Source of the DNA: a virus
Virus record (IMG/VR): IMGVR_UViG_3300046467_000257
Span: 1 to 42,441 of that record
Reading direction: 5' to 3' (one strand)
DNA: 42,441 nucleotides
Shown here: in pieces, positions 6,036 through 22,489 of the stretch
How positions within the stretch are numbered: position 1 is the first letter of the stretch
Layout: the number at the start of each line of letters is the position of its first letter
Translations under genes and position numbers: made by a program
The notes under the pieces: generated by a model
Database searches by the model: none
Told to the model about the DNA's origin: nothing
What the model saw: the letters and a program-made list of their open reading frames with translations, nothing else

Positions 6036-7109
6036 CTATTGAAATTTATATCTAAGTATTACACAACCATGACCACCAGCTTTAGCATTAGTAGTAGCAT
6101 TACCTCCTCCAGCACTAGCACCTCCACCAGTATGATTCGTTCCAGCATTTCCATCGCCATCAACTGATCCATTTCCACCACCACCTAATCCTCCCGTTCC
6201 TGCCGTCCCTGCATACCTCTTACCTCCTCCTCCTCCTCCAGAGAAATAAACATTACTGGAATCAACTTGTCCTACACCTTCTGTTGTAGCGTTAGCGTGA
6301 GCTATAATAGTTGTTAGATAACCGATACCACCATTCCCAGCAACAGTACTGGTTGCATCAACGCCTACGGCTCCTGCTCCACCACCACCTCCAGAACATG
6401 CATTAGTAGAAGTAGTGCCTCCCTTAAATCCCTGTGATGAAATAGTTGGAAAAGGAAGAGCATTTTCACCCCCACTTCCTCCACAACCACCATCTAAACC
6501 ATTAGTAGATGTATCTCCTCCTCCACCACCTCCAATAGCCCGAATAAACATATCAGTCGCAGTAACTTGAGACATTCCTCCATTATTACCGGGAATATCT
6601 GTAGTAACTGCTGCTCCACCATTCCCAACTGTCACAGTATAAGTCGTAGAAGCACTAAAAGATGTTGATCCTGCTACTACACCTCCAGCACCTCCAGCAC
6701 CATTTGGCCCAACTCCAGTACCTTGCCAACCTCCTGAACCTCCTCCTCCAGCTACAATTAAATACTGTACAGTACCACCTAATGTTCCTGTAGCAAATGT
6801 ACTGCTTGTCTTATAGACATGAACTTTATAGTCACCTTCTGTATAGATAGTAGTACCACCTGTTGCAGTAGAAACAATATCACTAACAGGAACAGCTTCA
6901 AAAGCAGGGACAGCACCAGCACCAGTTGAAGTTAGAACAGTACCATCTGCTCCAGTTGCTAATCTTGTTAATGCTCCTCCAGCGGCTCTGTAATACACAT
7001 CTCCAGTTGCATCTGATCCTAGAGTTATACTAGGAGAACCTGTAAAGGTAGGACTAGCCAATGGTGCATCGAGCCTTGCTCCGTCTGCATTTTCTCTTGC
7101 TCTTGTCAA
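6036..7109 (-). CDS. Glycine-rich adhesin-like tail protein 3
   Basis: This is the third of three adjacent proteins (357 residues) sharing a glycine-rich module. Residues 10-24 (GARLDAPLASPTFTG) match a common fibre-shaft motif. The glycine-rich part runs from about 115 (YLIVAGGGG) to the end (CVILRYKFQ). Such Gly-repeat regions in phage tip adhesins (gp38 of T-even relatives, for example S16) fold as packed polyglycine-II helices and bind receptors. The start is TTG, three bases from the end of the upstream gene; that gene's last codons supply GGAGG, so the two are coupled. It lacks the MSY(V/I)G N-terminus of the other two. Confidence 0.75.
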   Translation of the reverse strand: MTRARENADGARLDAPLASPTFTGSPSITLGSDATGDVYYRAAGGALTRLATGADGTVLTSTGAGAVPAFEAVPVSDIVSTATGGTTIYTEGDYKVHVYKTSSTFATGTLGGTVQYLIVAGGGGSGGWQGTGVGPNGAGGAGGVVAGSTSFSASTTYTVTVGNGGAAVTTDIPGNNGGMSQVTATDMFIRAIGGGGGGDTSTNGLDGGCGGSGGENALPFPTISSQGFKGGTTSTNACSGGGGGAGAVGVDATSTVAGNGGIGYLTTIIAHANATTEGVGQVDSSNVYFSGGGGGGKRYAGTAGTGGLGGGGNGSVDGDGNAGTNHTGGGASAGGGNATTNAKAGGHGCVILRYKFQ

Positions 7110-7110
7110 A

Positions 7111-8919
7111 TTACCTCCATCCTATTGAAGTTGCGTGAATTTTTGTTGTTTTACTTGCTGATTGATTATGTGTGGTGATCTTGTAGCACATGGCAGTTCC
7201 ACTTGCTCCTGTAAAAGATAAATCGTGAAATGCTAGGATTCTCTTGTTTGTTCCCCAATCACCCTCATCGACTAATGTTCCTTGTATGAAAGTGCTTCCA
7301 GAATCTCTTGAAACATAAGCCTTAATATCTCCTGAAGAAATATCTAAACTTGCAGTTCCTGCGGTATCTTCCATGAGCATTACCATGTCTGCTTTTGTTG
7401 GAGCGGCTTCTGCGGTTGTGTCTGTGGATTGAAGGGTTAGAGGATAATAAGTATCGGGAAGAGTAGTACCACGAATAATTACAATACCAGAACCACCATC
7501 ACCACCCGGCCCTGCCGCTAATGCTCCGGGGCCACCTCCTCCTCCACCTCCACCTGTGTTTGCTGTGCCAGATTCTCCAGTACCGGGGTCTAAAGCATCT
7601 CCTCCTCCATGAGAACCAGTTCCTGCTGTACCCGATCCATTATATGATCCTGAAGCTCCACCACCTCCTCCTCTGTCTGTTGCTGACCCATCAATGGATG
7701 AAGAAAGTCCAATACCACCATTACCACCTGTGTCAGCAGCGGGTCTTCCTTGCCCTACTCCCCCAGCACCACCTCCTCCAGCGGCAGCAAATGGGACAGT
7801 AGCTCCAGACGTACCACCACCAGCATATCCTTGATTTGTGGTTCCTGCTCCACCACCACTATTGTAACCACCACCACCACCACTACCTCCAACGGAGCCG
7901 ACTAAAGTACCTGAAGCACCTCCACCGCCTCCAACAGTTGTAATATCAGTAATATCTGAACCTACTATTGAAGAAGCAACACCAATTTCACCTCTTCCAT
8001 AAGGAGTAGTATATCCATTCCATGTGGCTCCGTCATGACCAGCACCACCTGCTCCTACTGTTATTGTATAAGTCGTACCTGCTACTAATGATAAAGCGGT
8101 TTCGTTAGTACCTCCTCCACCAGTAGCTTCAGAAGCATAGGAGTTGCGATAACCTCCTGCTCCTCCACCTCCAACACCAGACGAGGCTTGTGCCGCACCA
8201 CCGCCTCCTCCTCCTCCTGCTATAACTAAAAAATCCCATGAAGCAGATGAGGTTGTTGTAAAAGTACCAGCACCTGTACCTGTCCATTTGTACCAAGTGT
8301 CACCACCGACTACACCTGTAGCATCCGCATCGTGAGTTATTCCTGTTGGCGGTGTCGATGAATAAACTCCAGAAGTTAATACATGATTAGTAGAAGGTGT
8401 AGCATCTACTCCAGTTGCATCAGTATATTCATCAATGACTTGATCCTGTAAGTTATACTTTGCAAGTGAACCATTTACTGCGGTCTTGAAGGCAAGTAGT
8501 GCTATGTTGGTTTGAACAACATCATCGTTGTATTGAGCAGGAGTTGGAACAGTCTGCCAGCTTGATGTACCATCTCCATCTTCTCTGAGGAACTTACTTC
8601 CACCAGTTTCTCCAGTTGAGATAAGGGCAGTACCTTCTACAGTAGTTGCACTAAAGATCGACAGGGCAACAACTTCTACAACGTCTGAGGCCGTTAGAGC
8701 CGATAGACCTGTGATAGTGCTTCCATTCGTGGCCTGACAGTCTTTTCCTGTACCTACAACCAGCTTAACTCCGTTGAGATAGACTGAGACTTGTCCTGCG
8801 GTATAACCTATGGGTATCCCATCGTCATCAGCAGATACTACTGTTTCACCACCAGATGCTGTGAATGTGAATCTCTGGGCTTTGCCCATGCCATCCGGTT
8901 CTGCTCCGATATAACTCAT
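7111..8919 (-). CDS. Glycine-rich adhesin-like tail protein 2
   Basis: This 602-residue protein begins MSYIGAEPDG. Residues 15-95 form a beta-rich fibre domain (YTAGQVSVYLNGVKL). A linker contains IDEYTDATGVDATPS (about 162-176), and the glycine-rich module runs from about 231 (FLVIAGGGGGGG) to 485 (GIVIIRGT). Unlike its neighbours it carries about 117 more residues after the module, including AFHDLSFTGASGT. It is probably part of the tail-fibre apparatus and may contact the host receptor. AAAGG lies upstream of the ATG. The module is paralogous to those of the genes on either side. The function is inferred from architecture. Confidence 0.75.
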   Translation of the reverse strand: MSYIGAEPDGMGKAQRFTFTASGGETVVSADDDGIPIGYTAGQVSVYLNGVKLVVGTGKDCQATNGSTITGLSALTASDVVEVVALSIFSATTVEGTALISTGETGGSKFLREDGDGTSSWQTVPTPAQYNDDVVQTNIALLAFKTAVNGSLAKYNLQDQVIDEYTDATGVDATPSTNHVLTSGVYSSTPPTGITHDADATGVVGGDTWYKWTGTGAGTFTTTSSASWDFLVIAGGGGGGGAAQASSGVGGGGAGGYRNSYASEATGGGGTNETALSLVAGTTYTITVGAGGAGHDGATWNGYTTPYGRGEIGVASSIVGSDITDITTVGGGGGASGTLVGSVGGSGGGGGYNSGGGAGTTNQGYAGGGTSGATVPFAAAGGGGAGGVGQGRPAADTGGNGGIGLSSSIDGSATDRGGGGGASGSYNGSGTAGTGSHGGGDALDPGTGESGTANTGGGGGGGGPGALAAGPGGDGGSGIVIIRGTTLPDTYYPLTLQSTDTTAEAAPTKADMVMLMEDTAGTASLDISSGDIKAYVSRDSGSTFIQGTLVDEGDWGTNKRILAFHDLSFTGASGTAMCYKITTHNQSASKTTKIHATSIGWR

Positions 8920-8938
8920 GTTTGTTTCCTTTTAATTT

Positions 8939-10612
8939 TTATACTGCGTATCTGATTACCACTATTCCTGAACCACCAACAAAACCATCTACTGCTGCGG
9001 CTGGACAACCACCGCCATCTCCAGTATTTGCACCTCCAGCGGCATAGTCTATGTTATATTGACTCCCAACCGCCCCAGCGGCATAGGTTACATTTGATCC
9101 AGTTCTATAAAGATTGTCTGTTCCTGCTCCAGCATCTCCACCATTTCCAGAAGCTCCAGCAGTACCATGTCCGGCTGAACCTCCTCCACCACCTCCAGCG
9201 GCTGTTGTAGTACTACCACTAAATCCTGCACCACCATTATAAGTTCCAGTTCCTCCTCCTCCAGTATCAGCACCACCGCCTCCACCAGAACCTCCACCTG
9301 TAACACTAGCACCAGACGCATTTCCAGCACTTCCTCCGCCACCTCCTCCAGAAGAAGCAGTTATTGATCCGAATTGACTAAGGCCACCATTTGATGCGGT
9401 AGTTCCATTGCCGGTTCCACCAGCACCTCCAGTACCAACTGTAATAGTATATGTTTGAGCTGTAACAGCATGAGATGCTACGACATTAAAACCTCCAGCA
9501 CCTCCTCCTCCACCACGTTGATAACCACCACCGCCACCAGCACCGACAATGAGAATAGAAACATTTCTGCTATCCCTAACAGTAAAAGTACCACTTGTGA
9601 GAAATGTGTGGACACGATAACCAGAATAAGTTGTTATTGTTCCACCAATAGGTTCTGGATTTGCTGTTATTATATTAAATAATCTAGGAGAAGATTGTGT
9701 CTCTGCATCTGTTGCAGTAACAGTAAAATTATAAGTTGTGTAGGTAGTACCAGTAATAGTTCCTGTAATATCACCAGTAGATGTACTCATTGCCAAGCCG
9801 GGAGGTAATAAATTAGTTAGTGCATAAGAAGTTGCACTCGTTGCGGCTAGGTCTATTGTAGAAATTGCGGAACCTCCAATATACAGAGTACCAAGATTCC
9901 CAGAAGCAGTTGTCCATGCTGGTAAAGCACTATAATCAACATTAATACTTGCCGACAAACCAGATGAATTACTTACTATTAAACCATCAACCTTAGTTCC
10001 TGCTGTCTTTGCTGGAGTACCAGTAACAGTAATTTGAGTTGAACTATCTCTTGTTACTGTACTTGGAGCAGTCCCATCAATAGTAACAGTTGCACCAGTC
10101 GCAAAATTAGTACCAGTAATTATTAGTGTTTGTGTATTAAAGGTTAATGTACCATTAGTAACTGCTCCACCTGTAGTAGATGCACTAAGTTCAAATGCTG
10201 TAGTACTTGTAACAGAAGCAATCGTTGCCCCTACTGGAATCCCTGTACCAGAAACGGACATTCCTACCTTCATATTTGAATTAGTATCATGTGTTATAGT
10301 AGGATCGTTATTGTAGTCACAGGTTGCATCATTAAATTCTCCAACAGTATCCAGAGCGGTATCATCACCGGGATAATTGAGTGAGGAGATTGTAGGAGGT
10401 GAATCTATTGAAGCCCATCCAGAAGCGGCATATTGTTGCATAATGCCAAGAGTGGTATTGTATAGCATCATTCCAACTACAGGAGTCAACGCATCTCTTT
10501 CAGTTGTTGTAGCTGAAGGAATCTTAACGTAGTCACCTAAAAGGTTCAGGTTCGAGGGTATGTCAGCAGAGATTAAAGCGGCTCTGCCGGATTTTCTTCC
10601 TACGTAACTCAT
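8939..10612 (-). CDS. Glycine-rich adhesin-like tail protein 1 with Ig-like domains
   Basis: This 557-residue protein begins MSYVGRKSGR. Residues 30-68 hold a common fibre motif (TTTERDALTPVVGMMLYNTT). The middle shows IPT/TIG-like and putative-Ig (He_PIG-like) segments: TGTNFATGATVTIDGT, and LPPGLAMSTSTGDITGT followed by YNFTVTATDAE. The last 200 residues are glycine-rich, starting ILIVGAGGGGG and ending GIVVIRYAV. The layout is a shaft or anchor, Ig-like spacers and a probable polyglycine-II tip. It lies just after the fibre gene and a small protein and begins the three-member array. Receptor binding is inferred. Confidence 0.78.
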   Translation of the reverse strand: MSYVGRKSGRAALISADIPSNLNLLGDYVKIPSATTTERDALTPVVGMMLYNTTLGIMQQYAASGWASIDSPPTISSLNYPGDDTALDTVGEFNDATCDYNNDPTITHDTNSNMKVGMSVSGTGIPVGATIASVTSTTAFELSASTTGGAVTNGTLTFNTQTLIITGTNFATGATVTIDGTAPSTVTRDSSTQITVTGTPAKTAGTKVDGLIVSNSSGLSASINVDYSALPAWTTASGNLGTLYIGGSAISTIDLAATSATSYALTNLLPPGLAMSTSTGDITGTITGTTYTTYNFTVTATDAETQSSPRLFNIITANPEPIGGTITTYSGYRVHTFLTSGTFTVRDSRNVSILIVGAGGGGGYQRGGGGGAGGFNVVASHAVTAQTYTITVGTGGAGGTGNGTTASNGGLSQFGSITASSGGGGGGSAGNASGASVTGGGSGGGGGADTGGGGTGTYNGGAGFSGSTTTAAGGGGGGSAGHGTAGASGNGGDAGAGTDNLYRTGSNVTYAAGAVGSQYNIDYAAGGANTGDGGGCPAAAVDGFVGGSGIVVIRYAV

Positions 10613-13631: not shown

Positions 13632-13657
13632 TTAATCACATTTCATTATGTGAATAA
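13632..13657. promoter_or_regulatory. Palindromic operator-like repeat, copy 1
   Basis: The core is TCACAT-TTCATT-ATGTGA (13636-13653), with flanks TTAA and ATAA continuing the symmetry except for one base pair. The same 26 bases recur at 13828-13853 with one change. A 17-base partial copy (TTAGCCATTAATCACAT, also at 13625-13641) lies at 13700-13716. Repeated perfect half-sites either side of a divergent gene junction suggest binding sites for a dimeric repressor or activator, possibly a phage-encoded HTH or ribbon-helix-helix protein. Confidence 0.55.
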
Positions 13658-13827: not shown

Positions 13828-13853
13828 TTAATCACATTTCACTATGTGAATAA
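13828..13853. promoter_or_regulatory. Palindromic operator-like repeat, copy 2
   Basis: The core is TCACAT-TTCACT-ATGTGA (13832-13849), matching copy 1 at 25 of 26 bases. It overlaps the -10 region of a possible rightward promoter (13806-13834), a placement expected for repression of the early genes. Confidence 0.55.
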
Positions 13854-13919
13854 TGCATAAAAATGATTCCTTACTGATTCCTATGCAGTTTTAGCTTGAT
13901 TCTTGCTAGACATAGCCTG

Positions 13920-13957
13920 TAATCTGGCTTTGCCAGATTATCGGAGGTTGGCAACCT
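13920..13957 (+). promoter_or_regulatory. Two-hairpin leader before first early gene
   Basis: TAATCTGG (13920-13927) pairs perfectly with CCAGATTA (13933-13940). AGGTT (13945-13949) pairs with AACCT (13953-13957) around a GGC loop. An AACCC box and the GAGGTAATATGA start cassette follow. No U-tract follows either hairpin, so they look like leader structures and not terminators. Confidence 0.55.
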
Positions 13958-13982
13958 TCTAACCCAAACCCCTAGAGGTAAT

Positions 13983-14126
13983 ATGACACAGAAACAATTC
14001 AATACCCTGATGGATCATTACAACAATGATAATGAATCCGAAATATTAGCCTTTGCCGAAGGACTTCTGCAATTCAGCAGTTTTCTGGGAATAGCATTTA
14101 TTGTAATGCACATAATAACCAACTAA
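13983..14126 (+). CDS. Early small membrane protein (47 residues)
   Basis: This short gene begins at an ATG inside the exact cassette GAGGTAATATGA shared with six other early genes, which supports both gene and start. The product begins MTQKQFNTLMDHYNND. An acidic helix follows, then a C-terminal hydrophobic segment (FSSFLGIAFIVMHIITN), suggesting a tail-anchored inner-membrane protein. The next gene starts 14 bases after its stop. I know no family. Small early membrane peptides in phages often alter host membrane functions or exclude other phages, but no function can be assigned here. Confidence 0.75.
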   Translation: MTQKQFNTLMDHYNNDNESEILAFAEGLLQFSSFLGIAFIVMHIITN

Positions 14127-14140
14127 CCAAACGAGGTAAT

Positions 14141-14437
14141 ATGAGTAATATTAAATTGTTTAATTATGTAAGCGGATTCGGGGAATGTACCCCACTCTGC
14201 AATATAAAGAAGTTTGTCGGGCTGGAGAATGGAGAAACCTACGGCTATGACAGAAACAAGGTCTGGCATAATGGTTATGCTATACTTACAGATGAAGGGA
14301 AGAAGTTTTTTCTTTCACGCTGGGAACTCACAGACGATGATTTCAGTGAACTTTCAATGGAACAAGTTGAGTTTGAAACAGACGGCATTAATATTGATGT
14401 TGATCCTGAAACCCTAAGAAACTATGAGGTAATATGA
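14141..14437 (+). CDS. Early protein, unknown (98 residues)
   Basis: This gene has the GAGGTAATATGA cassette and stops inside the start of the next gene (ATGA overlap at 14434-14437), so both are translated together. The product begins MSNIKLFNYVSGFGECTPLC and has aromatic and acidic character. It includes DEGKKFFLSRWELTDDDFSEL and an acidic end, FETDGINIDVDPETLRNYEVI. Two cysteines (C16, C20) are present but no zinc motif. I do not recognise a family. Confidence 0.85.
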   Translation: MSNIKLFNYVSGFGECTPLCNIKKFVGLENGETYGYDRNKVWHNGYAILTDEGKKFFLSRWELTDDDFSELSMEQVEFETDGINIDVDPETLRNYEVI

Positions 14438-14976
14438 TAGTTAAAGTAATACACGCAAACTACGCTCACGATATGGTAAAGACTCTTGTCGCTTCTGTAG
14501 ATACTGGCGATATCACAGACCATGACAAAGCGCTTGAGTATGCATACGAGAAAACACAGAACATTTTCGACTCTTGGAGCAATCCTGCTGCAACAGAAGA
14601 TTATGAGACAAACCGGGACGGCGGAGCAATGGTAACAGTTGAAGCGCCGTTGCATGATATAGGCACTAAGCCTTGTGGACTACGCTCATCCATGATGGGC
14701 GATTACTTTCAAGTAATAGACCGGGAGAATTACGATCCTGATCTGTTTTATGTTTGCGCCATGATTGGATTCGATCCATGCGATCCGGTAGATTATCGGG
14801 CAATGGGATTAGATGAGAAAACTGGCTACGGCTCAAGGTTTAGAAAAGGTTATACAGTCCGAAACCCTTCAGACCATTTTTATAGAGATCATCCGGAATA
14901 TGAAACTTACGACGGCTTAGATTATAAAGAATCTGACAGCCGTGACGAATGGACGAGATCAAAGTTTAATTGTTAG
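14434..14976 (+). CDS. Early protein, unknown (180 residues)
   Basis: This gene overlaps the previous one by four bases and carries the shared GAGGTAATATGA start, which here lies in the end of the upstream gene. The product is acidic and rich in Asp and Tyr. The C-terminal half is unusual, with YRAMGLDEKTGYGSRFRKGY, then SDHFYRDHPEYETYDGLDY. No transmembrane segment or enzyme motif is evident. It ends the first early group, and a structured non-coding stretch follows. A highly acidic early protein could be a DNA mimic or an inhibitor of a host nucleic-acid-binding protein, but that is speculation. Confidence 0.85.
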   Translation: MIVKVIHANYAHDMVKTLVASVDTGDITDHDKALEYAYEKTQNIFDSWSNPAATEDYETNRDGGAMVTVEAPLHDIGTKPCGLRSSMMGDYFQVIDRENYDPDLFYVCAMIGFDPCDPVDYRAMGLDEKTGYGSRFRKGYTVRNPSDHFYRDHPEYETYDGLDYKESDSRDEWTRSKFNC

Positions 14977-14980
14977 CCCA

Positions 14981-15053
14981 GCAAACGCACCCACCACCTG
15001 GACAAACTGATATCAGGTCTGGGAGCGTTTGCGAGGGTAGCAATAAAGCTGCC
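14981..15053 (+). promoter_or_regulatory. Structured leader: long interrupted hairpin plus short hairpin
   Basis: In plus-strand RNA, GCAAACGC (14981-14988) pairs with GCGTTTGC (15025-15032). Inside it CCC (14990-14992) pairs with GGG (15021-15023), and ACCTG (14996-15000) pairs with CAGGT (15014-15018). The result is one interrupted stem. A second hairpin, GGTAGC/GCTGCC (15036-15041 with 15048-15053), contains a U-G pair that works only in plus-strand RNA. ATTTTAAACCC and a GAGGT start cassette follow. It may be a regulatory leader or a leaky terminator. Confidence 0.55.
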
Positions 15054-15081
15054 ATTTTAAACCCTAACCCAACGAGGTTGC

Positions 15082-15375
15082 ATGAAAGTATATATAAAAG
15101 GTCAGATTATCATTTTTGACGATGACGGCAAAAAACTTGGTTCTAGCGTGCATTACGCTTTTGACTGTAAGCCAACAGAGGATAATTTTGCATCAGTAGA
15201 AGACGAAGACGAAGAAGAACAGACCTGCACTCTGGACGTACTGGAGAACAGAACGCCCCTGCCGACTCAGAGAGTTGAAACTTTAGTTTCTGCTATGATG
15301 GACGGCATCGGGGATAACTTTGATCTCTGGGAGTTGTATGCATCCAGAGACATGAAAGAAAGCGAGGTTGCATGA
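15082..15375 (+). CDS. Early acidic protein, unknown (97 residues)
   Basis: This gene is preceded by GAGGTTGCATGA, a variant of the early cassette found identically before the next gene. The product begins MKVYIKGQIIIFDDDGKK, a beta-hairpin-like start. It has a strongly acidic stretch (VEDEDEEEQ, about residues 40-48) and ends LWELYASRDMKESEVA. It overlaps the next start by four bases. No family is recognised. It opens the second early group after the structured leader. Confidence 0.82.
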   Translation: MKVYIKGQIIIFDDDGKKLGSSVHYAFDCKPTEDNFASVEDEDEEEQTCTLDVLENRTPLPTQRVETLVSAMMDGIGDNFDLWELYASRDMKESEVA

Positions 15376-15530
15376 CTGAAACAGGTTTTTTTGTTGTACT
15401 TGGGATCATAGTTTTTGCGATCCTTATAAATGCGCTGATCTCATTCAGAGCAAAGCGCATCCGGACTGCTTGGAGAAAAAGCAAACTTAACTCTAAGCGT
15501 AATTTACTAACCCAAAAGAAACAGAGGTAA
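15372..15530 (+). CDS. Early small membrane protein (52 residues)
   Basis: This short gene starts at the ATG of GAGGTTGCATGA, overlapping the previous stop by four bases, and ends in the TAA that lies within the next gene's cassette. The product has one N-terminal transmembrane segment (FFVVLGIIVFAILINALISF, residues 6-25). A very basic cytoplasmic tail follows, with RAKRIRTAWRKSK. The positive-inside rule places the N-terminus outside. The tight coupling on both sides makes it a credible gene despite its size. Function is unknown; a membrane-acting early peptide is plausible. Confidence 0.78.
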   Translation: MTETGFFVVLGIIVFAILINALISFRAKRIRTAWRKSKLNSKRNLLTQKKQR

Positions 15531-15531
15531 T

Positions 15532-15723
15532 ATGACAATGAAAGAAGAATTAATTAAACTTGGTTTTGTCTTGGAGAAAATAGACGAGTATGAAGTATGC
15601 TTTGAGCTTAACCTGTCAAATGGCGGTTGTATCGTGATTAATTCAAATGACGATACAGACAACGAAGATATCCAAATCACGCTAAAGAATGATTCAGGAT
15701 ATGAATTTATTTTTAAACACTAA
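15532..15723 (+). CDS. Early small protein, unknown (63 residues)
   Basis: This gene has the exact GAGGTAATATGA cassette, one base after the previous stop. The product begins MTMKEELIKLGFVLEKIDEY and looks like a helix followed by beta strands with an acidic loop (NDDTDNEDIQITLK). It is soluble and acidic. No family is recognised. A possible second start codon (ATG, residue 3) lies just downstream. Confidence 0.8.
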   Translation: MTMKEELIKLGFVLEKIDEYEVCFELNLSNGGCIVINSNDDTDNEDIQITLKNDSGYEFIFKH

Positions 15724-15737
15724 ACCACAGAGGTAAT

Positions 15738-15992
15738 ATGAGTAAAATAATAATAGATATGCCAAATGCAAAATTGAAAGATGCAGTAGAAAAGAAATTG
15801 GCAGAAGAAACAAAGTATCGTGGCAATGGGCTTGCCGATCCGTGGAAATGCCCAGCCTGTAAAGATACAGTAACAGACTTTCCGGCAATATCACGGAGAG
15901 ACAACGAAACAGAAATCTGCTCGCAATGTGGCAATGACGAAGCCCTAGCGGATTATCGCCGACAATCAACCACACCCAGAGAGGTAATATGA
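15738..15992 (+). CDS. Early zinc-ribbon protein (84 residues)
   Basis: This gene has the exact GAGGTAATATGA cassette. The product has two CxxC knuckles, CPAC at about residues 38-41 and CSQC at about 61-64, separated by about 20 residues. That is the spacing of a zinc ribbon. The N-terminal part is helical (AKLKDAVEKKLAEETKYRG). It overlaps the next start by four bases. Small zinc-ribbon proteins in phages often bind nucleic acid or host RNA polymerase, but the target is unknown here. Confidence 0.82.
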   Translation: MSKIIIDMPNAKLKDAVEKKLAEETKYRGNGLADPWKCPACKDTVTDFPAISRRDNETEICSQCGNDEALADYRRQSTTPREVI

Positions 15993-16315
15993 AGAAACCA
16001 AACAAGGAAGAAAAAGCAATCCTTAAAAAAGACCTGAAAAAGTATGTTAAAAAAGGTTCAACAGTCTTTACCACATTAGGCAAAGACCCTTCCAGTTCTG
16101 GAATGTATCGACACATAAAATTGCTTGTAATAAATAAGAAAAGAATTTTAAATCTTTCTTATAGTGTTGGACAACTCACAGGCTGGACATATAAAGACAA
16201 GACTAATTCAATCGGGGTTGGCGGTTGCGGAATGGATATGGGCTACCATTTAGTCCATAATTTAGGCTATTATCTTTATGATGACGGCTACGCAATCAAG
16301 CATCAATGGATTTAG
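15989..16315 (+). CDS. Early conserved-type phage protein, unknown (108 residues)
   Basis: This gene has the GAGGTAATATGA cassette and a four-base overlap with the previous gene. The N-terminus is very basic (KKPNKEEKAILKKDLKKYVKK). The rest contains PSSSGMYRHIKLLVI, LSYSVGQLTGW and VGGCGMDMGYHLVHNLGYYL, ending YAIKHQWI. I recall phage hypothetical proteins with the SGM(Y/S)R and GGCGMDMG(F/Y)HLV pattern, but not a function. The invariant-looking Cys, Asp and His in GGCGMDMGYHLV suggest an active or metal site. It ends the second early group. Confidence 0.85.
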   Translation: MKKPNKEEKAILKKDLKKYVKKGSTVFTTLGKDPSSSGMYRHIKLLVINKKRILNLSYSVGQLTGWTYKDKTNSIGVGGCGMDMGYHLVHNLGYYLYDDGYAIKHQWI

Positions 16316-16325
16316 TCCCAACTAT

Positions 16326-16393
16326 AGGCAGCAGTCCTTCGGGGCTGTTGCTTGTAGTGTGGATTTACTGCACTACAGTCCTTCAGGGACTGT
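16326..16393 (+). ncRNA. Cluster of three RNA hairpins between early genes
   Basis: Hairpin 1 pairs GCAGCAGTCC (16328-16337) with GGGCTGTTGC (16342-16351) around a TTCG tetraloop; its two G-U pairs work only in plus-strand RNA. Hairpin 2 pairs GTAGTG (16354-16359) with CACTAC (16371-16376). Hairpin 3 pairs ACAGTCC (16375-16381) with GGACTGT (16387-16393). Hairpins 2 and 3 share two bases and so compete. Hairpins 1 and 3 are near-repeats (CAGTCCTTC-GGG-CTGTT). No U-tract follows. They could be processing sites or a regulatory RNA. Confidence 0.55.
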
Positions 16394-16418
16394 TTAACCC
16401 TATCCTACGAGGTAACAC

Positions 16419-16703
16419 ATGGATATAATTTGCAGACATTGCGGAGAGCCTATAGACATAGACGAACTGCACGAAACTAAATACGATTATAAGGTTATGA
16501 GTAACTTATTCCGTATTTATGGTTGTGGTGCTTTTGATCATGTCTGGGGAGATCGTCCGCTAGTGCCTTGTGATCGTTTTGCAATCAATCAAAACGCTGC
16601 TGCTTTATCGGGAGCGATGCAAGATATATCGCCCTATGCAGAAGAATGGTCGCAGGACTTTGACTCTTTACTGGAACAGTCCAGCAAGGAACTTGTAACT
16701 TAA
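16419..16703 (+). CDS. Early zinc-binding-type protein, unknown (94 residues)
   Basis: The start is the ATG of GAGGTAACACATGG, a looser variant of the cassette with a spacer two bases longer. The product begins MDIICRHCGEPIDIDELHE. CRHC plus later cysteines (YGCGAF near 51, VPCDRF near 67) could form a zinc site. An NQNAAALSGAMQDISPYAEEW segment follows. Phage proteins starting with CxxCGEP are common and uncharacterised. It stands alone between two hairpin-bearing gaps. Confidence 0.82.
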   Translation: MDIICRHCGEPIDIDELHETKYDYKVMSNLFRIYGCGAFDHVWGDRPLVPCDRFAINQNAAALSGAMQDISPYAEEWSQDFDSLLEQSSKELVT

Positions 16704-16712
16704 TTAAATCAT

Positions 16713-16734
16713 GGCGCAGCTTTACGGCTGCGCC
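16713..16734 (+). promoter_or_regulatory. Hairpin leader before 16753 gene
   Basis: GGCGCAGC (16713-16720) pairs perfectly with GCTGCGCC (16727-16734) around a six-base loop, 19 bases before the start codon. No U-tract follows. It occupies the same position relative to the start cassette as the other early hairpins. Confidence 0.55.
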
Positions 16735-16752
16735 TCAATCAATAGAGGTAAT

Positions 16753-17334
16753 ATGAGTAAAAAAGATGAATATTTAATATCTGAATTTATTCTTGATAAG
16801 ATCGAGAGAAATTTGGAAGAAGCAATACAGGAAATTAGGCAAGCTAGGGATGCAGGTAAAAGTGCAGGTAAATTAACCAAAGAAGAGAGAGGCTTCACAA
16901 AAAATTATGAGGCTTTCAGTAATCTGAAGACAGGCACATGGATTCGGCTTGACACTTGGCAAATCGAAAACCACACCTACATGATTGACAGGAACTATAT
17001 CAATTTTGCAGGTGAAACAGGAACCATTGTTAAAAATGAGGTTGAGCAGTTGAGGGGAGAATATGGAGTTGGTGAAACCCGGCAATATATTGAACTGAAA
17101 CTGGACAAGCATTTTCCGGGTTTAGATGAGTTTAATAATTGTTTGTCTTGGGAGATTGAGGAGCGTTTAAGATTTGATGGTGACAATGCGCTTTTTGTTG
17201 AGTGCGAGGAATTGATTCCCAGTTTTGATATCCTATTGGATTCCGGGCAGACTCTTGATGGTACAGGATACGGAATTAAACCAAGAAAATCCAACGATCA
17301 GGAAAACATCCGCAGGATTAAGGAAGTTGAATAA
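16753..17334 (+). CDS. Early protein, unknown (193 residues)
   Basis: I start the gene at 16753, in the exact GAGGTAATATGA cassette. The frame opens earlier at 16711, but that part runs through the hairpin and lacks a ribosome site. The product begins MSKKDEYLISEFILDKIERN. A long amphipathic helix (residues 8-45) is followed by a mixed domain with TGTWIRLDTWQIENHTYMID and an acidic C-terminal half. No family is recognised. The gene's last bases run into the A-tract of the opposing-strand terminator. Confidence 0.82.
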   Translation: MSKKDEYLISEFILDKIERNLEEAIQEIRQARDAGKSAGKLTKEERGFTKNYEAFSNLKTGTWIRLDTWQIENHTYMIDRNYINFAGETGTIVKNEVEQLRGEYGVGETRQYIELKLDKHFPGLDEFNNCLSWEIEERLRFDGDNALFVECEELIPSFDILLDSGQTLDGTGYGIKPRKSNDQENIRRIKEVE

Positions 17335-17336
17335 AT

Positions 17337-17376
17337 AAAAAACCCCACTCCGGATAACCCTAAAACCGAAGTGGGG
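17337..17376 (-). terminator. Factor-independent terminator of the replication operon
   Basis: Read leftward, the RNA has CCCCACTTCGG (17376-17366) pairing with CCGGAGTGGGG (17353-17343), 11 pairs including one U-G, followed by six U (17342-17337). In the plus direction the U-G becomes a C-A mismatch and no U-tract follows, so the element works leftward. It lies beyond the end of the primase gene and stops leftward transcription before the early genes. It also sits in the leader of the last early gene. Confidence 0.85.
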
Positions 17377-17400
17377 CAAACCCATCACCGAGGTAACGTG

Positions 17401-17613
17401 ATGAATTTTAATTATAACCTAAAAGGAGATAAAATGAAAGAGAATTTACCCCAAGTCCGAATCTCAAAACAGGCAGATAAACTGCTTGAAAAGTTTCTGG
17501 ACAAGTATGAAGAGATATATGGGCTTCGTCAGACAAAAACATGGTTTGTTACGAATTGTGTACTAAATGGACTGAAAAAAGAAGCTCAGATCAATGCAGG
17601 TGGTAACGAATAA
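17401..17613 (+). CDS. Ribbon-helix-helix-type regulator candidate with two starts
   Basis: Two starts in one frame are possible. One is ATG 17401 (or GTG 17398), next to the early cassette GAGGTAAC (70 residues). The other is ATG 17434, four bases after AAGGAGAT (59 residues). From the inner start the protein reads MKENLPQVRISKQADKLLEK, then RQTKTWFVTNCVLNGLKKE. A short strand (QVRIS) followed by two helices is the Arc/CopG-like pattern of dimeric DNA-binding regulators. It could bind the palindromes of the control region, but that is unproven. It is the last rightward gene and faces the opposing operon. Confidence 0.7.
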   Translation: MNFNYNLKGDKMKENLPQVRISKQADKLLEKFLDKYEEIYGLRQTKTWFVTNCVLNGLKKEAQINAGGNE

Positions 17614-20228: not shown

Positions 20229-20723
20229 CTAAAAAGGGATATCATCTTTGATTGGTTTCCCTGCATCGGCTGGAGGTGGAGTTAATACTTGCGTAGATTG
20301 AGAAGCGTGTATGGGAGCAAAGTATCTTTCCACCTCATTTGAATCTCCATAATCACCAGAACCCTTCTTAGTTTTAAGTCTGGCTCTGACTGCCTGATTA
20401 GAGAATTGGTTTGTATCCTGAATATTTATTGGTTCAGAAAGCCCAATTGCACGAGCCAGCTCCTCAATATATTCCCTCCCAATTCTCTGAGTGGCTTCGT
20501 TATCGTGCCGGATCATGTGATACTGAAAGACCCTCCTGTTTTGATTAGCTCCATCTGGGGATTCCAGAACTACCAGCTCCAGTTTTAAATGTTCTCCCCT
20601 TGCGGATTTTGTTTCCATTATCTCTGCATAATCTATTGACATTAGATATTCTCCATCCGGCAAGGGTTGGAAATCGTTGTCAACTGTTCTTGCATCAGCA
20701 GAACTAAAGTCGTATGTTCCCAT
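20229..20723 (-). CDS. SSB-like protein (DUF669 type)
   Basis: This 164-residue protein begins MGTYDFSSADARTV and has LPDGEYLMSIDYAEIMETK, the start pattern of DUF669 proteins, which replace single-strand binding protein in many phages. It ends in an acidic tip, DDIPF, like the C-terminal tails of SSB proteins that recruit partners. AAGGAG lies eight bases before the ATG. It overlaps the ATPase gene upstream by 20 bases. Next to a Sak4-like ATPase and a YqaJ nuclease, it probably coats single-stranded DNA during recombination and replication. Confidence 0.85.
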   Translation of the reverse strand: MGTYDFSSADARTVDNDFQPLPDGEYLMSIDYAEIMETKSARGEHLKLELVVLESPDGANQNRRVFQYHMIRHDNEATQRIGREYIEELARAIGLSEPINIQDTNQFSNQAVRARLKTKKGSGDYGDSNEVERYFAPIHASQSTQVLTPPPADAGKPIKDDIPF

Positions 20724-21534
20724 CTTTACTCTCCTTTTTTACCTGTTTCTTAGTTTCTTGTTTGGCATCATTGCCCGAACCTGCCCTAGAATCTTCTATT
20801 GCAGACATTAATACACTCCAATCCAAGTCAATCTTGTCTGGAAGTGCTACCCTCGTTTTACTCTCATAACTGGGATCATTCCCAATATTGAGTAAACGCC
20901 TACCTGTGGTAGTTGGTTTAAATTTAGTTATCCCGAACCCTGTAGTCTCCTGCTTTTTTGTGAAAGTTTCCAGCGAAACATAACCCAAAATATCGAGCCA
21001 TTCACGAATATATGAACGCATATTTCTTTCAAGAGCCAAGTCCCAGCGGTCATAATATTGATCAACATTTGGGTCTTTGATCTCTACAACTTTTGCATGA
21101 GAAATAATAAGGATATTAAATCCCAAGTCTCTCAAGTGATCCATTGGCTTCAGGAGTTTTACGAAACGTGACATTGACATCTGATGCCCCACTCCAAACG
21201 AAAGGTCTTTGTCATTGATTGAACCAGACTTAACTCCTCTCTCCTCACATATCTCTGCATGAACTTGCTTCTCTACATAATCTATGCTATCTAAACAAAT
21301 TGTGTCCTGCTTTATATCCTTGTGGTGCGTGTAAACATACTTGAAAAAATCAAGAAGATCATCTGTACTTCTTCCAACCATATTAACGCTCTCACAGTCA
21401 ATTTCACTAAGACCACCTTCAAAGTCTGCAATCAATGCATTTCTGGCATAATAGGATTTGCCTGATCCACCCTGTCCGTATGCTCCAACCTTCAAGGCTT
21501 TCTTCTTCTTACCCTTACTTATTTCTATTTCCAT
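20704..21534 (-). CDS. RecA-like ATPase, Sak4/AAA_24 type
   Basis: I start at ATG 21534 (276 residues) because AAGGAG lies six bases upstream. A frame opening at 21594 would run through the end of the nuclease gene. A P-loop GAYGQGGSGKS (17-27) and Walker B TICLDS (78-83) mark the RecA-fold core. NILIISHAKV follows, as in Sak4-type single-strand annealing ATPases. The C-terminal end is basic and flexible. Sak4 proteins promote strand annealing with an SSB, and here an SSB-like gene follows with overlap and an exonuclease precedes. Confidence 0.87.
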   Translation of the reverse strand: MEIEISKGKKKKALKVGAYGQGGSGKSYYARNALIADFEGGLSEIDCESVNMVGRSTDDLLDFFKYVYTHHKDIKQDTICLDSIDYVEKQVHAEICEERGVKSGSINDKDLSFGVGHQMSMSRFVKLLKPMDHLRDLGFNILIISHAKVVEIKDPNVDQYYDRWDLALERNMRSYIREWLDILGYVSLETFTKKQETTGFGITKFKPTTTGRRLLNIGNDPSYESKTRVALPDKIDLDWSVLMSAIEDSRAGSGNDAKQETKKQVKKESKDGNIRL

Positions 21535-21544
21535 TTGTCTCTCC

Positions 21545-22489
21545 TTATAGGATTTTAAAAGTGCGAAAAGTAGATTTATTAATATACTTTTCATTTTGCC
21601 ACAGCTCCGGCATATCTTCCCTCAATGCCTTCTGATTGAGCTGTGAGCGTGAACCATTTCTCCATTGTACGATCCGTTCCTTAGAGTTTGGAGTATTGAC
21701 GTATGTTGCATCTTCCATCATGTTTTGCATATCCGTTTCAATCTCAGCCATCCTTGCCTTCTTTGTCTTCATTTCCTGTGCAAGTAAATTTGCCTCTAAA
21801 TGTAACTCTAAAAACTTTGGAGTTGCATCAATACTTTTCTCTTCCGGATCAGCACTTGGAAAAATGTAAAGTGCTTCTTCTGGTGAACGAGCTGGTGGGG
21901 ATAATTTTGGAATAACGTAATTTGAATGAAACGCTTTCACCTTCCGAACCTGCTCTGCAATTGCTTCATCGTTCCGCTCAATCTTAAATACCCTGAAATC
22001 GTTGCCTCCAATCAAGACTGCCAACCACCAATAATCCCAGCCTGTAATATAAAGGTAGTGATTAATCTGGCAACGATACTCAATTGGAATTATAGGGTTT
22101 GGAGTTAAGTGTTGGCTGTATTCCTTTTTCTTAAATTCGGATGCAGTCTTAATTTCCAAGCCAACATTCTGGCCTGTGATCTTTGCATCAATATGTCCGG
22201 TTGCCAAGTCCCAATCTTTTGAAACGTATGTCCTGTTTACAAACCTGATTCCCAGATTCATCTCTTTGGCAAACCGCTTGCCAATCTGATCTTCAGCCCA
22301 TTGTCCTGCCTTAACATAGGGATTATCACTTAAATCATCCCTCTCCCTTTTTCCAATGAGCAGATCAAATTCCTTATTCGGGTGACTCCATCGGCTACTG
22401 CCAATACATCCTGCCACGTTACTTCCTGTATATTTACCCTTGCGTACTTCCGGGTCTTGTTCGGGTTTCATTTTTACTATTGCTGCCAT
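21545..22489 (-). CDS. YqaJ-family recombination exonuclease
   Basis: This 314-residue protein matches YqaJ/lambda-exonuclease-type viral recombinases. TGSNVAGCIGSSRW (21-34) is the family start motif. E66 (WAEDQI), D101 (TGHIDAK), E112 and K114 (GLEIKT), and Q141 (RCQINHYL) fit the catalytic PD-(D/E)XK set. The C-terminal third is helical with KTKKARMAEIETDMQ. AGGAGA precedes the ATG. It degrades one strand from DNA ends and feeds the annealing ATPase encoded next. The start overlaps the upstream gene by 13 bases. Confidence 0.92.
   Translation of the reverse strand: MAAIVKMKPEQDPEVRKGKYTGSNVAGCIGSSRWSHPNKEFDLLIGKRERDDLSDNPYVKAGQWAEDQIGKRFAKEMNLGIRFVNRTYVSKDWDLATGHIDAKITGQNVGLEIKTASEFKKKEYSQHLTPNPIIPIEYRCQINHYLYITGWDYWWLAVLIGGNDFRVFKIERNDEAIAEQVRKVKAFHSNYVIPKLSPPARSPEEALYIFPSADPEEKSIDATPKFLELHLEANLLAQEMKTKKARMAEIETDMQNMMEDATYVNTPNSKERIVQWRNGSRSQLNQKALREDMPELWQNEKYINKSTFRTFKIL

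Follow-up and report, generated by a model that had tools for sequence, protein, structure and literature searches.

A 12-bp translation start cassette, GAGGTAATATGA, is repeated through a hypervariable operon of an uncultured phage, and we conclude that this start-associated element of a presumably early operon probably also functions as a joint at which genes are exchanged. The phage is represented by IMG/VR record IMGVR_UViG_3300046467_000257, a virus sequence of 42,441 bases that was analyzed over its whole length (the window). Most genes of the window run leftward; they include those for the portal, large terminase, tail fibre, endolysin, major head protein, small terminase, primase, and HNH endonuclease, as well as an SSB-like protein, a Sak4-like annealing protein, and a RecE-like exonuclease. 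The main rightward block comprises about eleven small genes, nearly all without a database assignment, and its layout suggests that it is expressed early. A nucleotide search with this region against annotated phages gave no match, and a conserved end protein of 59 to 70 amino acids showed no sequence match among solved structures.

13983..17613, + strand: hypervariable, putatively early operon of about eleven small genes (from gene layout and comparison with relatives)
20229..20723, - strand: SSB-like protein, candidate recombination partner
20704..21594, - strand: Sak4-like ssDNA annealing protein, candidate recombinase
21545..22489, - strand: RecE-like exonuclease

A uniform start cassette in the rightward operon

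Seven exact copies of GAGGTAATATGA were found in the window, all on the + strand and none on the - strand, and 7/7 are located inside the rightward operon. Two genes carry the variant GAGGTTGCATGA, and the two remaining early starts have GAGGTAACACATG (16419) and GAGGTAACGTGATG (17401). The initial annotation had listed the seven 12-mers and the two variants, and all of them are present before rightward genes; the range that it gave extended to 17434, but the start at this position has its own AAAGGAG site. In the following list, L013 and L016 are related contigs, which are described below.

13975..13986, + strand: start cassette GAGGTAATATGA of gene 13983-14126; left homology to L013 stops here
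14133..14144, + strand: start cassette GAGGTAATATGA of gene 14141-14437; exact copy
14426..14437, + strand: start cassette GAGGTAATATGA of gene 14434-14976; supplies the TGA stop of gene 14141
15074..15085, + strand: variant cassette GAGGTTGCATGA of gene 15082-15375; right homology to L013 begins here
15364..15375, + strand: variant cassette GAGGTTGCATGA of gene 15372-15530; overlaps the stop of gene 15082
15524..15535, + strand: start cassette GAGGTAATATGA of gene 15532-15723; supplies the TAA stop of gene 15372
15730..15741, + strand: start cassette GAGGTAATATGA of gene 15738-15992 (zinc-ribbon-like); exact copy
15981..15992, + strand: start cassette GAGGTAATATGA of gene 15989-16315; supplies the TGA stop of gene 15738
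16409..16421, + strand: lengthened cassette GAGGTAACACATG of gene 16419-16703; spacing 5
16745..16756, + strand: start cassette GAGGTAATATGA of gene 16753-17334; left homology to L013 and L016 stops here
17390..17403, + strand: variant GAGGTAACGTGATG of gene 17401-17613 or of a leader ORF

At the GAGGTAACGTGATG site, initiation at the neighboring in-frame GTG (17398) would again give a spacing of 3. The 12-mer has stop codons in both non-start frames, one TAA and one TGA, and therefore closes the preceding open reading frame in two of three frames. Three upstream genes indeed end inside a cassette, two of them at its TGA (14437 and 15992) and one at its TAA (15530).

The most common combination of an 8-mer and ATG in the window was GAGGTAATATG, that is, GAGGTAAT followed by ATG, which occurs seven times; in 100 Markov shuffles, the top count for any such combination was 2 to 3 and never exceeded 3. 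The uniformity extends beyond the Shine-Dalgarno (SD) sequence. The spacer was AAT in 7/9 cases (P = 2e-4, given the spacers of the leftward genes), and an A at +4 was present at 10/11 early starts versus 14/36 leftward starts.

Shine-Dalgarno properties of the cassette

The cassette is almost certainly an SD translation start signal. When aligned to the anti-SD sequence, the spacing was 3 for 9/11 early genes, and for leftward genes with an SD it was likewise most often 3 and mostly between 1 and 5. The difference noted in the initial annotation (short spacing for early genes, longer spacing for late genes) was thus an artefact, because the sites pair with different parts of the anti-SD. The accompanying statement that late genes mostly use AAGGAG did not hold either, as the leftward sites are mixed and 12/36 lacked an SD of at least 4 nt in the anti-SD scan. 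The pairing energy of the cassette was -6.2 kcal/mol, while leftward sites reached up to -10.4 kcal/mol and many of them were stronger. A stronger SD was therefore discarded as the reason for the cassette; being neither stronger nor differently spaced than the sites of other genes, it does not owe its uniformity to SD strength. The predicted accessibility of the start and SD was not higher at early than at leftward starts (p=0.42). A search of RNA families yielded no convincing match, the best being anti-hemB with an E value of 0.35, far below the cut-off.

Leaders and hairpins upstream of the cassette

An AACCC-type box had been described before many early genes, and we found AACC within positions -60 to -9 of 9/11 early starts and AACCC in 6/11. 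For comparison, AACC occurred in a fraction of about 0.20 to 0.27 of random 52-base stretches and at 10/36 leftward starts. The leader is poor in G, with a fraction of 0.095 compared to 0.183 before leftward genes (p=0.005 on the counts). Across 18 mutually different leaders, AACC is located near -22 to -19 and an A at -15. The positional information amounted to 8.5 bits, compared to 5.7 and 5.3 bits expected from letter permutation and window shift, respectively (p<0.0005), to which common descent of the leaders may contribute. Since spacer, +4 A, and leader are conserved despite an ordinary SD energy, the earlier proposal that selection or cassette duplication maintains something beyond a simple ribosome site is supported.

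Directly before the leader, a hairpin is present at every non-coding junction of the operon (z scores of -2.5 to -4.6).

13915..13961, + strand: two hairpins before the first leader
14981..15053, + strand: hairpins before the leader of gene 15082
16314..16393, + strand: hairpins before the leader of gene 16419
16713..16734, + strand: hairpin before the leader of gene 16753
17343..17376, no strand assigned: hairpin ahead of the gene 17401 leader, resembling a terminator on the - strand

Related contigs retain these hairpins with altered sequence. Each of the five hairpin groups contained at least one compensatory pair and the last contained four; the counts per group are small and mostly non-significant singly, and all five point in the same direction.

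Relatives and homology breakpoints

Relatives of the primase (70 to 98% identity) were detected on eleven contigs. L013, L016, and L105, and also L049, cover the early region, and L010 and L014 contain part of it. GAGGTAATATG stands before many genes in L013 and L016 and before the one or two early starts present in L105, L010, and L014. A second, overlapping type of start, e.g., AAGGAGGATGTATGA, is used by some early genes in L010, L014, and L016. The same cassette thus occurs in five related viral contigs, whose gene sets differ, and it precedes homologous as well as unrelated genes. Stretches of about 28 bp comprising leader and cassette also recur ahead of different genes. These observations further support maintenance of the cassette by selection or duplication; rather than having unrelated start regions, the relatives carry the same element. 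An IMG/VR scan with the pattern AACCC..GAGGTAATATGA returned, outside this lineage, matching loci with one GAGGTAATATG each, and at the sensitivity of that scan the cassette array looks lineage specific. L013, L016, and L105 encode ArdA (PF07275; E value of 5.5e-28 for the L013 copy), so that anti-restriction genes belong to the early operon in these relatives, where the cassette precedes them. Among ArdA relatives from other phages, those whose start regions were inspected showed no such cassette.

A point absent from the initial annotation is that gene content changes between relatives at the cassette. We extended homology outward from every cassette pair in six contigs, using a score threshold of 14 (99.9% of random pairs score 7 or less). 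Homology on at least one side was found for 21 pairs, which are not independent and represent about ten distinct junctions from about six contigs, some of them partial. Both sides were homologous in only 2/21. In the ten left-only pairs, homology passed through leader and cassette and ended at the ATG in 9/10; in the nine right-only pairs, it started at the cassette in 8/9. Right homology to L013 and L105, for instance, begins at the cassette 14426..14437. Judged by one blast criterion applied to both groups, homology was continuous across the start for 5/28 early genes versus 20/37 leftward genes (p=0.004). When the window is compared with L013, three indels, each one or two genes long, run from cassette to cassette: genes 13983 and 14141 are missing from L013, a 79-amino-acid gene of L013 is missing from the window, and gene 15532 is missing from L013, where the start of the next gene differs too.

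In any mosaic phage, breakpoints naturally fall at gene starts. Selection for a site at each gene would also retain the cassette on both sides of joints made elsewhere.

Comparison with known repeat elements

The closest known kind of element is the SAS/ESAS pair of cluster K mycobacteriophages (PMC3203893) and Microbacterium cluster EF phages (PMC7302621). Like the cassette, SAS are short, near-identical repeats at the ribosome-binding position of many small non-structural genes that belong to different families; both mostly include ATG, sometimes contain the upstream stop, and lie mostly in one orientation. In about half of the cases, SAS have a further element immediately upstream, and the cassette likewise has an upstream element. 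The sequences differ, however: SAS read GGGATAGGAGCCC or GGGAAAGGACCCC, and the cluster K consensus GGGATAGGAGCCC is not matched by GAGGTAATATGA. ESAS are 17-bp inverted repeats that were judged unlikely to form RNA hairpins (PMC3203893), whereas the window has no conserved 17-bp inverted repeat but hairpins of varied sequence with compensatory changes. The cassette is therefore the same kind of element as the cluster K SAS but belongs to a different family.

Gene-content breakpoints coincide with the cassette, while in a comparison of the cluster K phages Anaya and Pixie, which offers few pairs, both sides were kept at 1/5 SAS starts versus 6/22 non-SAS starts. As starts in these phages break with or without an SAS, the breakpoint pattern alone is no proof of recombination at the cassette. 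What goes beyond the Anaya/Pixie pattern is the identical sequence at nearly all joints, the indels from cassette to cassette, and the leaders that stay with the upstream neighbor.

A 26-bp start repeat has been described for Citrobacter phage Mordin (PMC4611695). It resembles the cassette in combining an A/C-rich leader with an SD before small left-arm genes and in being followed by different genes. Comparing Mordin to Felix O1, we found that the copies share about 60 to 70 bp upstream and that 3/25 homologous pairs keep both sides; the common unit in the window is shorter, at 12 bp and at most about 28 bp.

Nearest in evolutionary role, as far as summarized in PMC4503421, are the promoter early stem-loops (PeSLs) of T4-like phages, which are reported to mediate gene shuffling (Arbiol 2010 and Comeau 2014, via PMC4503421). 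PeSLs are likewise repeated regulatory cassettes with a stem-loop at gene boundaries in variable regions, but in the window stem-loops occur at non-coding junctions only, no sigma-70-like promoter was found, and what is repeated is the translation start. Nearest in concept, judging from the account in PMC3029335, are the boundary sequences of lambdoid phages, short conserved sequences that were suggested to direct homologous recombination (Clark 2001; Susskind and Botstein 1978, cited in PMC3029335). For PeSLs and boundary sequences as described in these sources, gene content shifts at the element between relatives, as it does at the cassette. Distinct from the lambdoid case is that one sequence occupies nearly all boundaries of the operon and is the ribosome site. 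The cassette thus differs from SAS/ESAS, the Mordin repeat, PeSLs, and lambdoid boundary sequences in a tested feature each. A search of the literature on exchange of phage genes guided by ribosome-binding sites produced nothing specific.

Proposed role and alternative explanations

The core GAGGT-AAT-ATG-A is an SD site of ordinary strength with a fixed 3-nt spacing, preceded by the leader, which is poor in G and has AACC near -22 and A at -15, and, at non-coding junctions, by the hairpin. A uniform translation entry is well supported: every gene on one long, presumably early transcript receives its own comparable ribosome site, making gene order irrelevant. With the same 12 bp (up to about 28 bp) at nearly all gene boundaries, the cassettes would probably also provide short direct repeats for insertion, deletion, and exchange of genes. 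A role of the cassette in recombination is likely in view of the breakpoints and indels. More tentatively, the start cassette itself may be the joint, a dual signal for translation and recombination at which annealing recombination adds a gene that is translated at once. A possible agent is the phage's own annealing recombinase, for which the window encodes the Sak4-like protein, the RecE-like exonuclease, and the SSB-like protein. A length of 12 bp is short for homologous recombination.

The main competing explanation, which we consider unlikely, holds that the cassette is a translation signal only: selection would keep one optimal start before each gene, illegitimate exchange would occur anywhere, and those joints at gene boundaries that have a good start would survive. 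The constant spacing by which the cassette is fixed to the start codon and the positional consensus of the leader agree with this idea, as do the cluster K starts, which break alike with or without an SAS. Newcomers should then carry leader and SD types of their own, yet homology meets the cassette in 8/9 right-only pairs and the indels join cassette to cassette. Moreover, SD strength and accessibility are unremarkable, and the exact AAT rather than TGC spacer is hard to explain by strength alone.

The initial annotation favored a dedicated regulatory mark beyond the ribosome site. As such a mark, GAGGTAATATG in early mRNA would be read by a phage or host protein or RNA that switches translation, as RegA and RegB of phage T4 do at other sites. 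Conservation beyond the SD was borne out, since the uniformity exceeds the SD, leader positions are conserved, and the exact copies are confined to the operon; the RNA-binding regulator found no support, as no candidate was identified among the families searched. One leftward gene (6036-7109) also carries the near copy GAGGTAAT, there before a TTG start, and we regard such a mark as improbable. A DNA-level element (promoter, operator, or stoperator-like site) is very hard to credit: TAATAT resembles a -10 box by eye and the repeats share a single orientation, but there is no -35 partner, a scan limited to sigma-70-type promoters gave no hit at the cassettes or in intergenic regions, and the cassette is locked base-exactly to the start codon while its distance to other features varies.

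Candidate host and implications

Homologs of the primase N-terminal domain and of the small terminase were found at the end of an 862-kb contig of a SAR324 metagenome-assembled genome (MAG), which we treat as a lead only. This 3.2-Mb MAG contains no copy of GAGGTAATATGA, and GAGGTNNNATG shows no excess over the reversed control. Provided that SAR324 is indeed the host, and only then, these counts argue against a site typical of the host.

If our preferred reading of a start cassette that doubles as an exchange joint is true, the phage would gain and lose early genes, which in the relatives include anti-restriction genes, at a 12-bp start socket that closes two of three upstream frames. As one short sequence is present at nearly all joints, the question of exchange can be tested by scrambling that sequence, and SAS elements gain a concrete hypothesis of their role. 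In viral metagenomes, the cassette also provides a marker with which operons of early accessory and possibly anti-defence genes can be found.

Other features of the early operon

Two copies of the palindrome TCACATTTCAYTATGTGA (window positions 13636-13653 and 13832-13849) lie in the AT-rich stretch separating the rightward early operon from the divergent small-terminase gene. The pair is operator-like, and the exact form of the palindrome had no match in the related viral contigs. Towards the other end of the operon, a hairpin whose arms covary (CCCCACT/AGTGGGG) was found at 17343-17376; a run of A residues lies on its 5′ side. On the minus strand, this hairpin resembles an intrinsic terminator and could halt the leftward replication transcript ahead of the early operon.

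A short leader open reading frame (ORF) that starts with GAGGTAACGTGATG occupies 17398-17433 and has counterparts in the related contigs L013 and L016. An early stop ends the leader ORF in these two relatives; in the window and in L010, another related contig, it is joined in frame to the following gene. The last product of the early operon (17434-17610 in the window) is a conserved protein of 59 to 70 amino acids, which was found in the relatives covering that end. Judged by eye, it is ribbon-helix-helix-like; sequence searches gave no assignment.

Related contigs and leftward genes

An ArdA anti-restriction gene, absent from the window, is present in three relatives (L013:13476-13994, L016:2869-3387, and L105:5001-5087), each time preceded by the same start cassette as the early genes of the window. 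The early regions of L010 and L014 displayed a second, overlapping start type, AAGGAGGATGTATGA; here, short coding stretches at the 3′ terminus of the preceding gene recur between genes.

Among the leftward genes, three neighbors (genes 6036, 7111, and 8939, within 6036-10612) are apparent paralogs, all matching phrog_2295. Gene 6036, the first of them, has a TTG start preceded by GAGGTAAT. Homologs of the small terminase and of the primase N-terminal domain were located at the end of an 862-kb contig (L112) of a SAR324 metagenome-assembled genome, representing a possible prophage and a possible lead to the host.
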